A DNA stretch of 45,137 bases from Thermoplasmata archaeon. GTDB lineage: Archaea; Thermoplasmatota; E2; DHVEG-1. The translations under genes were made by a program, and so were the position numbers. Numbering within the stretch: position 1 is the first letter of the stretch; each line of letters begins with the position of its first letter. A model generated the notes under the pieces. It did no database searches and was not told where the DNA came from. It saw nothing but the letters and a program-made list of their open reading frames with translations. The DNA lies in the NCBI GenBank assembly GCA_003942085.1, contig DQIQ01000011.1:1-45137 (forward strand), in the 5' to 3' direction. Positions 22,286 through 40,915 of the stretch are shown one piece after another.

Positions 22286-22487
22286 GATAAAAAAGAATAC
22301 AAAGAACTAGTCTAATAGTGACTCCATAACATGTAGAATCAGCTGAGCAATGTCGGATGGATTAAGTGTTCGAACTCAGCCGGATTTACCTTCCTTTTTT
22401 CTCCTTTTTTTCCTCATTGATCCCAGCAAACCATTGATCTTTCCGGATAATAAAATATTTATCTACAAATCCAATATATATTTCCGT

Positions 22488-22548
22488 GGGGTTCTGGTTG
22501 TTTATTCTTTTTGAATAGGAACCTTTCCTCTCCTGCATCCCAGACCCC
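22488..22548 (+). ncRNA. Candidate small structured RNA, copy A
   Basis: TATA-like ATTTATCTAC centred ~27 nt upstream; GGGGTtCTGG...CCAGACCCC stem (one bulge); inner hairpin TATTC/GAATA; loop CCTTTCCTCTCC; followed by TTTCCTTTTT. Confidence 0.6.
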
Positions 22549-22574
22549 TTTCCTTTTTAACAAGGGTCCTAGGG

Positions 22575-22590
22575 ATATGTTTTTAAAGGG
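22575..22590 (+). promoter_or_regulatory. TATA-type promoter (ATATGTTTTTAAAGGG) for collagen-like gene
   Basis: Same TATGTTTTTAA motif occurs upstream of the genes at 26963 and 27937. Confidence 0.55.
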
Positions 22591-22629
22591 GATGGTCGTT
22601 ACAAAATTATATGATGTGGAGGATTTAAA

Positions 22630-24015
22630 ATGCGACAAAAATTTTATAGAAAGCTAAAGCTGGTGCTCTGCATAGGGATTTGCGCACTTTTCATGGTGAC
22701 GGCATTTTCCGCCGTGACCGCAACTTCGACGAACACACAGGGAAACGGAACAGGAAACGAACAAGGTGCTACAACAAAAGCCACTCTTTTTAAAGGTCTG
22801 TCTGCTTTTAAGCTATTCAGCTGGGATTTCTGGTCTAACCCACCGCATATCTTCACGAGAAACACTGGCAATGTCGGGATTGGTACGACTAACCCAGTCG
22901 CGAAACTAGATGTCCTGGGAAACATTGCAATCAACGGTATGGAGATCATCGACACATCGGGGAGATGGGTCGGAGACCTTACCGGAATGCAAGGACCACA
23001 AGGACTACAAGGTGAACAAGGACCAACCGGACCACAAGGACCACAAGGAATCCAAGGACCAGCTGGACCGCAAGGACCACAAGGACAACAAGGTGAACAA
23101 GGGCCTCAAGGACCACCGGGACAAGACGGATCAGAAGGTGCACAGGGTATACCAGGAATACAGGGTGAACCAGGAGTACAGGGACAACCTGGGCCGCAAG
23201 GGGAACAAGGTCCTCAAGGTGAAATAGGGTCACAAGGCATCCCAGGTTTATCACCCGCCTACGAATGGTTCGGAACAATGCTCAGATTCCAGAATCCTGA
23301 CGGTACTTGGGGAAGTTTTATTGATTTACTCGGCCTACAAGGACCGCAGGGCGAACCAGGATCTCAAGGGGAACCAGGACCTCAAGGAATCCCTGGAGAA
23401 CAGGGAATGCCAGGGGATTCACAGTGGGGATTGAACGGGATGAACACCTATTACATCAATGGCAGTGTCGGCATTGGTACGAAAAATCCTTCAGCTAAGC
23501 TAGAGATAAATGGGACGGTTGCTGCCAGCACCTTTGTCGGTGATGGCTCGTTGCTGACGAATCTTCCTGGAATGCCCCTCATCATTTTAAATGGTAATTA
23601 TGGTTGTAATCACTCTGGGCCCTACAACTACTACTATGAATTGTCACCCATCGCTTCGACCTATCTGACAGGAGATTATTTGAAAATAGAGATAACCGCG
23701 TATAGCAACGTCCATGTCATACAGAACAACAATGGTGGTTCAGATATCGATATTCGGACCAAACAACTCGGCGGCTCCTATGCAATCAGTATGCCTGCGC
23801 AACACTTCCTGCGCGTCAAACCTGTCTCGATTACCACCGCAACAGATTATGAAAATGTAGGTCAGACAAGCTCGCTCACCTGGTACCATACTCTTACCCC
23901 TGGCGAAAAAACCAATGGAGTCCAGATACAAATACATGTGTACCTCTACAGCCTTACCTCGTCAAACCAGTTCGCAGAATTCGAAAACATCCAGACTATC
24001 GTAAGTTCGATATAA
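22630..24015 (+). CDS. Secreted collagen-like protein with tail-fibre-type GIGTxNP motifs
   Basis: Signal peptide; 30 + 10 GXY triplets; [17 protein letters not shown] and [17 protein letters not shown] flanking; SD GGAGG. Confidence 0.9.
22984..23253 (+). repeat. Collagen-like GXY block 1 (30 triplets)
   Basis: [18 protein letters not shown]...GIPGLS. Confidence 0.95.
23332..23421 (+). repeat. Collagen-like GXY block 2 (10 triplets)
   Basis: [30 protein letters not shown]. Confidence 0.95.
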
Positions 24016-24024
24016 TGATCCACC

Positions 24025-24064
24025 CCTGAGGAAATAATTTCCCCAGGATTTCTTCTTTTTTTTG
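24025..24064 (+). terminator. Hairpin plus T-tract terminator after collagen-like gene
   Basis: CCTGAGGAAATAATTTCCCCAGG followed by ATTTCTTCTTTTTTTTT. Confidence 0.6.
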
Positions 24065-24239
24065 TTATTTTTTATTCACGCAAACCATACGGTAAACAAT
24101 TTTTTTCCTGACTAACCAATTGAAAATGATACGATAAAAAATATTAATATTGAATTTTTATCTTTACCAAACATTTAAATCAAAGTAACAGTATTTCATA
24201 TCTGGAAGTATAGATAGAATATAAGGAGGCATTATAAAA

Positions 24240-25496
24240 ATGGAAAGAAGAAATAGTAAAAAAATGTTGGTAATAGGATTAGTACTCCTATTCCTTGGAG
24301 CAGGTGCCACACTCGTAGTCAGCGCGAATCGAGCATGGGCTGATAATTTCGACTCATACACTGACGGACAACTTTTAGATGGAACATCAGATGACGGAGG
24401 ATGGAAAGGGTGGGGTAACGCTCCTGCAGCCGCTGGAATGGTAACCAGTGCCCAATTCCGAAGCGCCCCGTTTTCGAACCAAATATGGGTGGTGAGTGAC
24501 AACGTCCATGAATATGATGGGTACACCTCAGGACACTGGGTGTACACTGCTTGGCAATACATCCCGAATGATTTTACTGGCATGTCATATTTCATCCTGT
24601 TAAGTGCCTACGATGACGCTGGTGCGACAAACGTATGGAACGTCCAAGTAAATTTTGATGCTGATACAAATTTAGTGACATCAGAAATGGATTCAAACAC
24701 AGTACCCCTCATCAAAGGGCAATGGAATCAAATCCGCTGTGATATTGACCTCGATAGCGATTATTTAGCGATCTACTATGCAGATATGCTAATTGTCGAA
24801 AAAACATGGAGCGAAACCTATGACGGCACCGGTGGCGGACCAATGGAAATTGCTGCAGTTGACCTCTGGTCAAATGGTGCATCGCCAGTATATTATGACG
24901 ATATGTCACTTTCACCAGCTGGAGCAGAATTAACATGTGACGCAGGCGGACCATATTCTGGTGAAGAAAATCAAGCGATTCAGTTCACTGGTTTTGCCTC
25001 TGGTGGATCAGAGCCTTACACATGGTATTGGACCTTTGGTGACGGCGGTTCCTCAACAGTTCAAAACCCAACCCATGCCTATACCACACAGGGCACCTAC
25101 AATGTCTCCCTGATTGTCACCGATGGAGCCTCATCCACAGCCACTGACATAGCAACCACGACCATTACCGAACCTCAACCCTTGCCATTACTAGAAATTG
25201 GGACGATCACCGGCGGGTTCGGTGTCACAACATCAGTGAAAAACACCGGAGAAGCAGATGCGACCAATGTCGTCTGGACGATAAACCTTGACGGAAAATT
25301 AGTCTTCCTGGGAAAATCATCCACAGATACGATCGCAACTCTCGCATTTGCAGGTGACGAACAAATTAAAGCAGGATTCATCCTTGGTTTCGGTAAAACC
25401 AATATCGTAGTATCCGCAACCTGTGATGAGGGTGTCACCGCAGAGCTCACCAAATCAGCGTTTGTTCTCGGGCCAATAGTTCTTGGAGTAAAATAA
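24240..25496 (+). CDS. Secreted LamG-like/PKD-domain protein with shared C-terminal domain
   Basis: Signal peptide; WADNFDSYTDGQLLDGTSDDGGWKGWGN; PKD CDAGGPYSGEENQAIQFTGFASGGSEPYTWYWTFGDGG; ILGFGKTNIVV...VLGVK C-terminus. Confidence 0.85.
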   Translation: MERRNSKKMLVIGLVLLFLGAGATLVVSANRAWADNFDSYTDGQLLDGTSDDGGWKGWGNAPAAAGMVTSAQFRSAPFSNQIWVVSDNVHEYDGYTSGHWVYTAWQYIPNDFTGMSYFILLSAYDDAGATNVWNVQVNFDADTNLVTSEMDSNTVPLIKGQWNQIRCDIDLDSDYLAIYYADMLIVEKTWSETYDGTGGGPMEIAAVDLWSNGASPVYYDDMSLSPAGAELTCDAGGPYSGEENQAIQFTGFASGGSEPYTWYWTFGDGGSSTVQNPTHAYTTQGTYNVSLIVTDGASSTATDIATTTITEPQPLPLLEIGTITGGFGVTTSVKNTGEADATNVVWTINLDGKLVFLGKSSTDTIATLAFAGDEQIKAGFILGFGKTNIVVSATCDEGVTAELTKSAFVLGPIVLGVK

Positions 25497-25612
25497 TCAC
25501 TCCCCCCTCTCTTTTTTTTCTTTTTTTTGTCATTGATTTGTATAAAAAACATAAGCCATTATGGAGGATAAGTTTTTAAAAAAGGATAATAAATAAACAG
25601 TCACATGATGAT

Positions 25613-25804
25613 TTATTCATCTGGATTGGAGTATTGTCTGCCGTGGTCTTTTTTTTGTTTTTGCGTTTTATGAACAAGCATTGCTTTAGGATCATCAAAT
25701 TCGTTGCCACAGTCTTTACACACATATTTTGGTGTCTTTCTTTTTCTAATGGAAATCTTAACACCATCGCATTTTGGGCACATTTCAAAAAAATCCTTAG
25801 CCAT
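25613..25804 (-). CDS. Small zinc-ribbon protein
   Basis: CPKCDGVKISIRKRKTPKYVCKDCGNEFDD. Confidence 0.7.
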   Translation of the reverse strand: MAKDFFEMCPKCDGVKISIRKRKTPKYVCKDCGNEFDDPKAMLVHKTQKQKKDHGRQYSNPDE

Positions 25805-26105
25805 CTGAGAAAATTTATTATGAGATCGTACAACACATTCATTTTCGTCTCTGATTAAGATACAATCACCAATCTTGATATATTTTAATATCCTTATAAA
25901 GAAATCCTTATGGGATGTTATCAGAAATAGTAACCCTAATCAAAAAACCAGGATTACTAAGATTATTTTTTTATATTAACGAAGATTATTTCTAAGATCG
26001 AACCCTTTCTAAATTATAGTAAGAATGTGAGGCGACAGTGACTCCTGCATCATTATCTGCCAATCATGTTTTATAAATTATCATGCACATTCTTCTAAGC
26101 AGAGG

Positions 26106-26369
26106 ATGTGGACTTGGATGCACAAAAATATACAGAGGATAAATGCTCCCTCTATACCGAAAGGGCCATGTCGTGAGAATTGTCAACAGCATGTTGGTAT
26201 TACTCAGATGGTTGCAGATGCTGTTGCGGACTATAATGCGATGTTGCCGTTGTTGGAGCATTTTGAAAGCAAGGATGTGAATGAACGGTTGATCAAAGAG
26301 GCAGAAGAGGAAGATGCTAAGGTGTTCTTGGATGGTATATTTGACATGATGGAACGAATGAATAGTTAG
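26106..26369 (+). CDS. Hypothetical small protein
   Basis: 87 aa ORF; acidic C-terminal half; start uncertain. Confidence 0.45.
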   Translation: MWTWMHKNIQRINAPSIPKGPCRENCQQHVGITQMVADAVADYNAMLPLLEHFESKDVNERLIKEAEEEDAKVFLDGIFDMMERMNS

Positions 26370-26519
26370 AGCGATTTTTTCAGATGATGAGATGCAGGTA
26401 ATTGATGGTATTTGGTGATAGTGTTTTTCAAAGCAGAAAGTAGGTATTTTTCGAAAAAAAAAAGTGTAATAAGCACATTATTAAAGAAAGAATTGTTATA
26501 AATTTCCACGTAGTCGTCT

Positions 26520-26864
26520 ATGGTAGATATGATGATGGACTGGGACCAAATGATGAACTGGTGGGGATTTCCCTTTGTGGGATTCTGGATGGTCGGCCTG
26601 TGGCTTTTCTTTGTCATCATCGCATTTTTGATCTATAAAGATGCCAAGCAAAGAGGAATGAACGAGTTGCTATGGTTCATCTTGGTCATCTTACCATGGA
26701 TAGGGATCCTGTTTCTCATACTCTACCTGATTCTCCGCCAAGAAAAACAACCGGATATTTCCATTCAAAAGAACGCGCAGCATATCATTGGTGAGCGATA
26801 TGCCAAAGGGGAGATAACCAAAGAAGAATATAAACAAAAGAAAAAAGACCTTAAAAATCAATAA
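26520..26864 (+). CDS. Two-TM membrane protein with C-terminal SHOCT-like motif
   Basis: Two TM helices then GERYAKGEITKEEYKQKKKDL. Confidence 0.75.
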   Translation: MVDMMMDWDQMMNWWGFPFVGFWMVGLWLFFVIIAFLIYKDAKQRGMNELLWFILVILPWIGILFLILYLILRQEKQPDISIQKNAQHIIGERYAKGEITKEEYKQKKKDLKNQ

Positions 26865-26962
26865 TCAATCATCATCTTTTCTCATTTATTAGCACAAAAC
26901 ATGAGCTACCACTCATTAGGTATGTTTTTAAAGATGTTCAAGTTGTAAAATTGTAGTAATAG

Positions 26963-27499
26963 ATGAGATATATGGAAAATGATGAAAGCGAGCAGATTAC
27001 TAAAGATGAGCTAGAAATCCTTACAGAGCTTCAGAAAAACTCAAACGAAAGTGTTGATGCCATCGCAAAACACTGTGGTTTCTCAAGACAAAAAGTGTGG
27101 AGGAGTATTAAGCGATTAGAAGAAAATCATTTGATCTGGGGATATACCGCTGTTGTTGATGACGAGATGAAAGGGCTCAAGCACTTCACGCTTTTAATTA
27201 AACGATCCTATAGGCCGCTGGAAGAAAAAACAGCAGATGTTATTATAAAGCGAAAACTAGACGACTTAGCGTCAGAAATGGGAATCACCATTGAAAACAG
27301 TTACTACGTTCACGGCAAGTATGATTGGATTATTACCTTTCCCGCCCAGGATATCAGATATGCGAAAAAGTTCTCTGAGGTCATCCTCAATCTGCATCCC
27401 GGCATAATCAAGGAGATTGAACTCATGCAGACACTCTATTTTGTGAAGAAATACCAAGCATTGAATCCCAATGCAAAGAAGTTAAAAGAAATTATATAA
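26963..27499 (+). CDS. Lrp/AsnC-type transcriptional regulator
   Basis: LTELQKNSNESVDAIAKHCGFSRQKVWRSIKRLEENHLIWGYTAVVD; TATGTTTTTAAA promoter ~34 nt upstream (leaderless-type). Confidence 0.75.
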   Translation: MRYMENDESEQITKDELEILTELQKNSNESVDAIAKHCGFSRQKVWRSIKRLEENHLIWGYTAVVDDEMKGLKHFTLLIKRSYRPLEEKTADVIIKRKLDDLASEMGITIENSYYVHGKYDWIITFPAQDIRYAKKFSEVILNLHPGIIKEIELMQTLYFVKKYQALNPNAKKLKEII

Positions 27500-27534
27500 A
27501 CAATGTTTGGACTGAAAATAAAACTGACAATGAA

Positions 27535-27756
27535 TTATGTGTTCGGTTTCGATGATTTACAATGGATGCACTCTGTAAAATAATCTAGATTTCCATATTT
27601 ACATGCTGGACAGATCCATGCCATGAGGTAACCTCCGAACCACCAATCAGACATCCAACAAACGGGATGAATGTTGCACATAATCTCTTTAGTCCCCTGT
27701 AGCACACAATAAACTGTATCATTTTTCTCACATATTAGGGTTTTGGAGGATAACAT
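27535..27756 (-). CDS. Small Cys-rich zinc-finger-like protein
   Basis: WICPACKYGNLDYFTECIHCKSSKP; start may be internal because the annotated ATG overlaps the TATA-like box of ncRNA copy B. Confidence 0.5.
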   Translation of the reverse strand: MLSSKTLICEKNDTVYCVLQGTKEIMCNIHPVCWMSDWWFGGYLMAWICPACKYGNLDYFTECIHCKSSKPNT

Positions 27757-27785
27757 TTATCTACTAGTTATACATATAATATTAT

Positions 27786-27865
27786 GGGGGTCTGGACTTT
27801 CCGAAAAAGAAAGCTTTTACATTTCAAACCTTTCCTCCCAGAATTTTGAATACACCGGACCCCCC
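27786..27865 (+). ncRNA. Candidate small structured RNA, copy B
   Basis: ATTTATCTAC ~27 nt upstream; GGGGGTCTGG...CCGGACCCCCC stem (one G-U); inner hairpin CTTTC/GAAAG; loop CCTTTCCTCCCAGA; followed by TTTCCTTCTT. Confidence 0.65.
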
Positions 27866-27936
27866 TTTCCTTCTTCAAAATAGTCTTTCAGAGGTATGTT
27901 TTTAAGAAAGAAAGTACTACGGGGTCTATCATAGAA

Positions 27937-40657: not shown

Positions 40658-40722
40658 GGGTCTGGGCTTAAAAGTCTGGGAGGAAAGAATGCAAAAAAAA
40701 ACATTCATTAAGGCCCAGACCC
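40658..40722 (-). ncRNA. Candidate small structured RNA, copy C
   Basis: Minus strand: ATTTATCTAC ~27 nt upstream; GGGTCTGGGC...GCCCAGACCC perfect 10-bp stem; inner hairpin GAATG/CATTC; loop CTTTCCTCCCAGA. Confidence 0.65.
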
Positions 40723-40915
40723 ACTTATTAATATAGATATCAAGTAGATAAATTTATCTGTGAATCCAACGGTGTTGATTGATTCTTCTTTATAGTCCCT
40801 CTCGAGGGTTTGCAGAACTATTTGAGGATAAAAAACAAAAAAAGACCAATGACATTGTCTACGGGTCTCTCATGATCATTTTTCACTGACCTTACGGCAG
40901 TGAATGAAAAAGCAA

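Follow-up and report, generated by a model that had tools for sequence, protein, structure and literature searches.

A multi-copy family of predicted structured small RNAs with anti-Shine-Dalgarno loops in uncultured Thermoplasmatota

Small RNAs that expose an anti-Shine-Dalgarno motif are known from alphaproteobacteria. The alpha-r14 or cuckoo RNAs (NfeR1 and its relatives) keep an ultraconserved motif, CCUCCUCCC, unpaired and pair through it with translation initiation regions; they are built of three adjacent hairpins with one motif each (PMC10746234). Targets are known for few archaeal small RNAs, and those best characterised in one review come from Methanosarcina. The intergenic sRNA154 of Methanosarcina mazei has an anti-ribosome-binding-site loop that masks the ribosome-binding site of glnA2 (review PMC5867862). 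Here we analyse a 45,137-nt contig of a Thermoplasmata archaeon (assembly GCA_003942085.1, contig DQIQ01000011.1; the whole stretch is called the window below), which carries three intergenic elements with a TATA-like box, a closing stem and a loop complementary to Shine-Dalgarno sequences. An earlier reading of the sequence without database searches had described them as a three-copy small-RNA family. Our comparison with related genomes confirms that the elements belong to a previously unnamed, multi-copy family of predicted structured small RNAs of uncultured Thermoplasmatota.

The three copies lie exactly where the sequence-only reading had placed them: copy 1 (GGGGUUCUGG...CCAGACCCC) at 22488-22548 and copy 2, of type b, at 27786-27865, both on the plus strand, and copy 3, of type a, at 40658-40722 on the minus strand. 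The promoter box ATTTATCTAC occurs three times in the window, once 5' of each copy (22457-22466, plus; 27755-27764, plus, within the motif GGATAACATTTATCTACTAG; 40744-40753, minus). At all three copies the G-run begins after a spacer of 21 nt, so that the centre of the box lies about 26-27 nt upstream of its first G, in agreement with the spacing of about 27 nt read earlier. The closing stems are GGGGUUCUGG/CCCAGACCCC in copy 1, GGGGGUCUGG/CCGGACCCCC in copy 2 and GGGUCUGGG/CCCAGACCC in copy 3, where the stem can extend inwards; the bulge and the G-U pair previously noticed are found in copies 1 and 2, respectively. All three copies fold better than their dinucleotide shuffles (z = -2.6, -2.8 and -5.3). 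The loop motif CUUUCCUC(U/C)C, rightly singled out as conserved, has exact matches at the three copies only. Motif search places the anti-Shine-Dalgarno loops at 22523-22532 (plus, CUUUCCUCUC, in the altered loop CCUUUCCUCUCCUGC of copy 1), 27830-27842 (plus, CUUUCCUCCCAGA) and 40674-40687 (minus, CUUUCCUCCCAGAC). T-rich 3' tracts are present, as had been said, but they are modest and weak at copy 3. Inner hairpins exist in all three copies (UAUUC/GAAUA, CUUUC/GAAAG, GAAUG/CAUUC), but they are not compensatory changes of one stem, as the sequence-only reading had taken them to be: the hairpin abuts the loop in copy 3 and lies about 15 nt further 5' in copy 2. Because these positions are non-homologous, the three sequences alone are no proof of covariation.

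Covariation becomes visible in the closing stem once relatives are included, which bears out the proposal of a structured RNA family. Among 45 members from the genus, 96.9% of the stem cells are paired and 39 cells are changed on both sides, against 6.8 in shuffled controls, and all slid-stem controls are worse; for the 31 members from other genera, 96.3% of the cells are paired and the both-side changes number 94 against 28.7. As the alignments were fitted to the model, these numbers lean towards the closing stem. The changes can also be seen by eye, as in GGGAGUCUGG/CCAGACUCCC, GGGGUUCUGG/CCAGAACCC and GGGGUCUAGC/GCUAGACCCC. In alignments of the intergenic regions, pairwise conservation is 0.64-0.97 for type e and 0.74-0.95 for type a across the element, TATA box and 3' stem included, and mostly 0.25-0.45 in both flanks. 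Promoter position and this conservation footprint are what points to a discrete transcript.

The copies in the window are real, but three is an underestimate. A pattern consisting of the loop and the 3' arm recovered copies in seven of eight congeneric genomes, and two orthologous groups, type a (copy 3) and type b (copy 2), were aligned from its matches. A MAFFT alignment of the three copies alone misplaces copy 1, and the first covariance model (CM), R1, was therefore built without it, from relatives of copies 2 and 3 and with the closing stem only. R1 finds members in all nine congeners, 3-11 per genome at E <= 1. The genome of the window itself holds at least 5-6 copies by this model (three on contig C3, others on C75 and C79), and pattern search adds another that is more divergent but built alike. 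The further copies whose absence would have refuted the earlier reading are thus found, in this genome and in all congeners. Copies 2 and 3, whose sequences are part of the model, match with E = 3e-18 and 8e-19, and copy 1, which is outside it, with E = 0.001; such E-values are rough, and the metagenome-assembled genomes are incomplete. Copy 3 has orthologues in seven congeners, most of them at a syntenic position, and for copy 1 none has been found so far outside its own species.

A wider model, R2, was run on 52 genomes of the order. It has matches in 9 of 27 genera, all within one taxonomic family of Thermoplasmatota, and in none of seven genomes of two sister families; copy numbers outside the genus are lower bounds, with 75 candidates scored per genome. 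These matches overturn a restriction to the genus that a strict loop pattern had indicated among 59 relatives, and which resulted from the strictness of the pattern. A pattern scan of genome contigs matched congeners, including Thermoplasmatales archaeon SM1-50 (Thermoplasmatota), UBA33 and LacPavin, and four records named Deltaproteobacteria, Armatimonadetes, Ruegeria and an Aenigmatarchaeota bin. A script for simple stem-loops returned two candidates (0-1 in shuffles) from an evenly spaced 400-kb sample of genome G014; it was judged too strict because the CM finds five matches at E <= 0.05 in the same sample, four of which resemble the family. Rfam 15 has no match in the window at gathering thresholds and nothing credible around the copies at E <= 1 (a sub-threshold match to MIR396 has E = 0.52 and 23.8 bits against 80), in line with the earlier statement that no named family was recognised. 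A literature search, covering few subscription journals, found no description of the family.

Subfamilies a, b, d, e, f and g follow a common plan: TATA box, G-run, closing stem, U-rich middle or hairpin, CUU(U/A)CCUCCCAGA loop, and 3' arm. The loop CUUUCCUCCCAGA is nearly constant across members while the stems change. The stem arms are GGGAGUCUGG...CCAGACUCCC in type d, GAGGGGGUCUAAA...UUUAGACCCCUUCUC in type e and, in genome G002, GGGGUCUAGC...GCUAGACCCC in type f; the strong members of genus g7 have different stems again (e.g. AGGGGUCA...UGACCCCU) around the same UUUCCUCCC loop, and sometimes stand in tandem. In the main types the loop is CUUUCCUCCCAGA or CUUACCUCCCAGA, a single motif inside one closing stem; in some members another CUUUCCUCCC follows immediately 3' of the stem. 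A TATA-plus-loop pattern and weak CM matches brought up more divergent elements that retain the loop core. Among these, type h (L113:645-760, and in L102, L105, L107 and L121), a further conserved RNA-like element, has a CUUUCCUCCC loop, a long covarying stem (GUUGAUGAG/CUCAUCAAC, GCUGAUGAG/CUCAUCAGC) and, between TATA box and start, an operator-like palindrome, TTAACAATTGTTAA.

The complement of the loop CCUCCCAGA(C/U), (A/G)UCUGGGAGG, coincides with the Shine-Dalgarno region of genes for pilin-like proteins and a helicase. When the genus was searched for UCUGGGAGG 3-12 nt 5' of a start codon and each open reading frame (ORF) was then read, three conserved gene families were left. The product of the first is a membrane protein of 150 aa that combines a pilin-like signal with an immunoglobulin-like (Ig-like) part; the leader has GUCUGGGAGG in all seven species that hold the gene, and this 10-mer is invariant while most neighbouring positions vary. 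The second is the divergently oriented gene for a 168-aa pilin-like protein, with AUCUGGGAGG in four of six species; one base of the motif is changed in G008 and the motif is absent in G002. In G004 the genes of these two families lie on separate contigs and both keep the motif. The third family, with UUGUCUGGGAGGACAAUG, and likewise GUCUGGGAGG, in the leader in six of seven species, appears from our own reading of its motifs to be an SF1-type helicase; a Pfam search with its N-terminal part gave no match. Chance matches to the complement within coding sequence or without an ORF (e.g. G008:C33, G005:C30 and G000:C84) were discarded. The 3' end of the 16S rRNA is canonical, GGAUCACCUCCU, so that pairing with the ribosome explains GGAGG only and not the UCUG upstream of it; in the genes for TATA-binding protein (TBP), which likewise have a GGAGG Shine-Dalgarno sequence, the preceding bases vary. 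Duplexes predicted between loops and these leaders range from about -18 to -31 kcal/mol, whereas the median of 244 leaders is near -9.5. The conserved complementary leaders thus back the anti-Shine-Dalgarno loop of the sequence-only reading.

Between the loops of type b (CCUCCCAGAUUU) and the pilin-like leader (AAAUCUGGGAGG) the match extends over 12 nt, as it does between those of type d (UUUACCUCCCAGAC) and the Ig-like leader of the genome of the window (GUCUGGGAGGUA); as a pattern noticed after the fact, this suggests divided labour. In copy 1 the loop UCCUCUCCUG (22523-22536) is a perfect 10-nt complement of the Shine-Dalgarno region of a secreted-protein gene at 956 (leader AACAGGAGAGGATTTCTACCATG), its best match among the 244 leaders; the two are possibly a private pair of small RNA and target.

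Structure is also seen in leaders and leader-like stretches. Most species have a GUUCA/UGAAC hairpin in the helicase leader (L213-L219), followed by UUGUC-UGGGAG-GACAA with the Shine-Dalgarno sequence in the hairpin loop; G007 has lost the latter part. Two species (L198:~2200, minus strand; L199:1797) have GUCUGGGAGGUGGUA in a leader-like stretch and, 3' of it, a perfect hairpin, UUGUAGUGAGC/GCUCACUACAA, with no long conserved ORF; the stretch could be a sponge or another structured leader. GGGAGGAAAGG and CCUUUCCUCC, which are able to pair within one transcript, occur together in two other intergenic regions (L184:~1550 and L186:~1690, both on the minus strand).

The genomic context of the RNAs is conserved. 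Type e adjoins a helix-turn-helix (HTH) gene in nine of nine congeners, with tandem TBP genes on its other side in all eight that have that side, and its position is unchanged in another genus, with 96% identity in TBP and 79% in the HTH protein. The gene families on either side of type a, too, are shared by most congeners. With such a context type e cannot be a leader, and a mobile element is disfavoured. The two tandem TBP genes beside the type-e RNA at L060:4068-5363 encode proteins of about 183-186 aa, and such a pair accompanies type e in most of the congeneric genomes and also in genus g3. Within the window, a gene for an Lrp/AsnC-type winged-helix regulator (26963-27499, plus strand) precedes copy 2, and its homologues stand beside many of the family RNAs, at several separate loci in at least three genera. 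The distance is within about 400 nt at copy 2, at L018, L024 and L089, at type e in two genera and, in g7, at L238/L239, L248, L250 and L259; at the last three the regulator has RNAs on both sides. L259 comes from the G014 sample, which has only two such HTH genes, the second with an RNA about 0.9 kb away. By an estimate from this sample of about a dozen HTH homologues per genome, rather than by a formal test, chance adjacency should be rare.

Two further features accompany the copies in the window. A second conserved promoter-like motif, GGNTATGTTTTTAA(A/G), lies 3' of copies 1 and 2 (22576-22592 and 27890-27906), before the next gene, and likewise 3' of one type-d-like copy (L072). Proteins with collagen triple-helix repeats are unusual in archaea; the gene after copy 1 (22630-24015) encodes a secreted protein of this kind (Pfam PF01391, E = 3e-20).

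We read the elements as trans-acting anti-Shine-Dalgarno small RNAs, encoded by independent genes and pairing with selected mRNA leaders, and give this reading a probability of roughly 0.66. The genes would produce structured non-coding RNAs of about 60-95 nt. Their 5' end would be the G-run, some 21 nt downstream of the TATA box, and their 3' end would follow the GC-rich closing stem. The stable stem would protect the RNA and display the nearly constant single-stranded seed CUUUCCUCCCAGA(C/U). Partners in trans could be the mRNAs for type IV pilin-like membrane proteins and the SF1 helicase, which have (G/A)UCUGGGAGG around the Shine-Dalgarno sequence. Pairing with GGAGG would most likely block ribosome binding and control translation of particular mRNAs, and the CAGA(C/U) part would restrict the choice of mRNA. 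Since the paralogues have different stems and promoters, one seed could be expressed under different conditions, and some copies are probably under the control of the Lrp/AsnC-type regulator next to them.

Several points weigh against this reading. The targets were picked by complementarity, so that their number carries a selection effect, from which the conservation of the block alone is free. In G003 and G005 the RNAs are present, but no pilin-like or helicase target was detected. In the helicase leader the motif lies within a self-complementary hairpin, UUGUC/GACAA, which could itself explain the conservation, and the pilin-like leader is conserved around the motif as well. Copy 1 and types h-k lack the CAGAC extension and would need other targets. 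What the comparison shows is the family with its closing stem, constant loop and promoter position, its synteny, the conserved complementary leaders and the linkage to the regulator; transcription, pairing in the cell, repression rather than activation and control by the regulator are inferred. The many copies with a near-identical single-stranded motif and variable stems would equally fit decoy RNAs whose loop binds an RNA-binding protein, as CsrB-type RNAs titrate CsrA, the leader motif GUCUGGGAGG being separate or secondary. From a decoy one would expect likeness to the mRNA site, but the leader motif is an exact complement of the loop, not a copy, over 9-10 nt that include a part beyond the Shine-Dalgarno core, and it is invariant in seven of seven species for one gene; we consider decoys unlikely.

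Cis-acting leaders, such as riboswitches or attenuators of the downstream genes, are suggested by the position of copies 1 and 2, which lie 73-81 nt upstream of codirectional ORFs. They are nevertheless very improbable, because a convergent HTH gene follows type e in all nine congeners, antisense genes follow some type-a copies, and the second promoter-like motif intervenes between copies 1 and 2 and their ORFs. The several copies per genome and their terminal inverted repeats recall mobile or palindromic DNA without RNA function, of the miniature inverted-repeat transposable element (MITE) or repetitive extragenic palindromic (REP) kind, and the sequence-only reading had named a MITE as the outcome that would overturn it. 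Yet the copies stand at conserved syntenic positions (target-site duplications were not systematically searched for): orthologues share synteny, once across genera, and most subfamilies keep their position. Conservation covers the loop and not the repeats alone, the TATA box stands at a fixed distance, and phage and plasmid records have no similar DNA and viral contigs no pattern match, so that we give mobile DNA very little credence. We give still less to short coding genes on the opposite strand, where GGGAGGAAAG-AATG resembles a Shine-Dalgarno sequence with a start codon. Copy 3 does have, on the plus strand, GGGAGGAAAGAATG followed by a 15-codon frame, but types b, d and f have no such arrangement, and the frame of copy 3 is not kept in its orthologues, since a homopolymer within it has anywhere from 6 to 9 T.

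Within the reading as trans-acting small RNAs, a more specific and tentative picture, to which we give somewhat less than even odds, is that of a proliferating module, duplicated across genomes of the taxonomic family, in which one or two anti-Shine-Dalgarno RNAs flank an Lrp/AsnC-type regulator. One seed would serve a defined set of mRNAs (pilin-like surface genes and the helicase) that carry a dedicated 10-nt leader code, (G/A)UCUGGGAGG, and paralogues with altered loops would gain other targets.

If the proposed pairing is correct, a multi-paralogue family of anti-Shine-Dalgarno small RNAs exists in another archaeal phylum, an apparent parallel to the cuckoo RNAs of bacteria. Both the RNAs and their predicted targets conserve the 10-mer through which they would interact, and archaeal translational control by small RNAs with a shared seed becomes directly testable. 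As in the functional class of anti-Shine-Dalgarno RNAs, the loop is complementary to translation initiation regions, and both partners are conserved. The combination of a constant motif with variable stems is shared with the cuckoo/alpha-r14 RNAs. Unlike these, the present RNAs are archaeal, have CUUUCCUCCCAGA or CUUACCUCCCAGA in the loop rather than CCUCCUCCC, form one long closing stem around one large loop instead of three hairpins, and carry a CAGA(C/U) part that would add target specificity. With sRNA154 they share an archaeal and intergenic origin and a loop complementary to ribosome-binding sites; sRNA154, however, is reported as a single, nitrogen-regulated RNA with two stem loops, conserved in Methanosarcina, whereas the Thermoplasmatota genomes hold many paralogues each. 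The M. mazei sRNA41 and sRNA162 are likewise archaeal trans-acting intergenic RNAs, but single ones from a distant lineage, and their sequences were compared with the present family through Rfam only. The likeness to cuckoo/alpha-r14 and sRNA154 is thus best read as one in the way of working and not as demonstrated homology.

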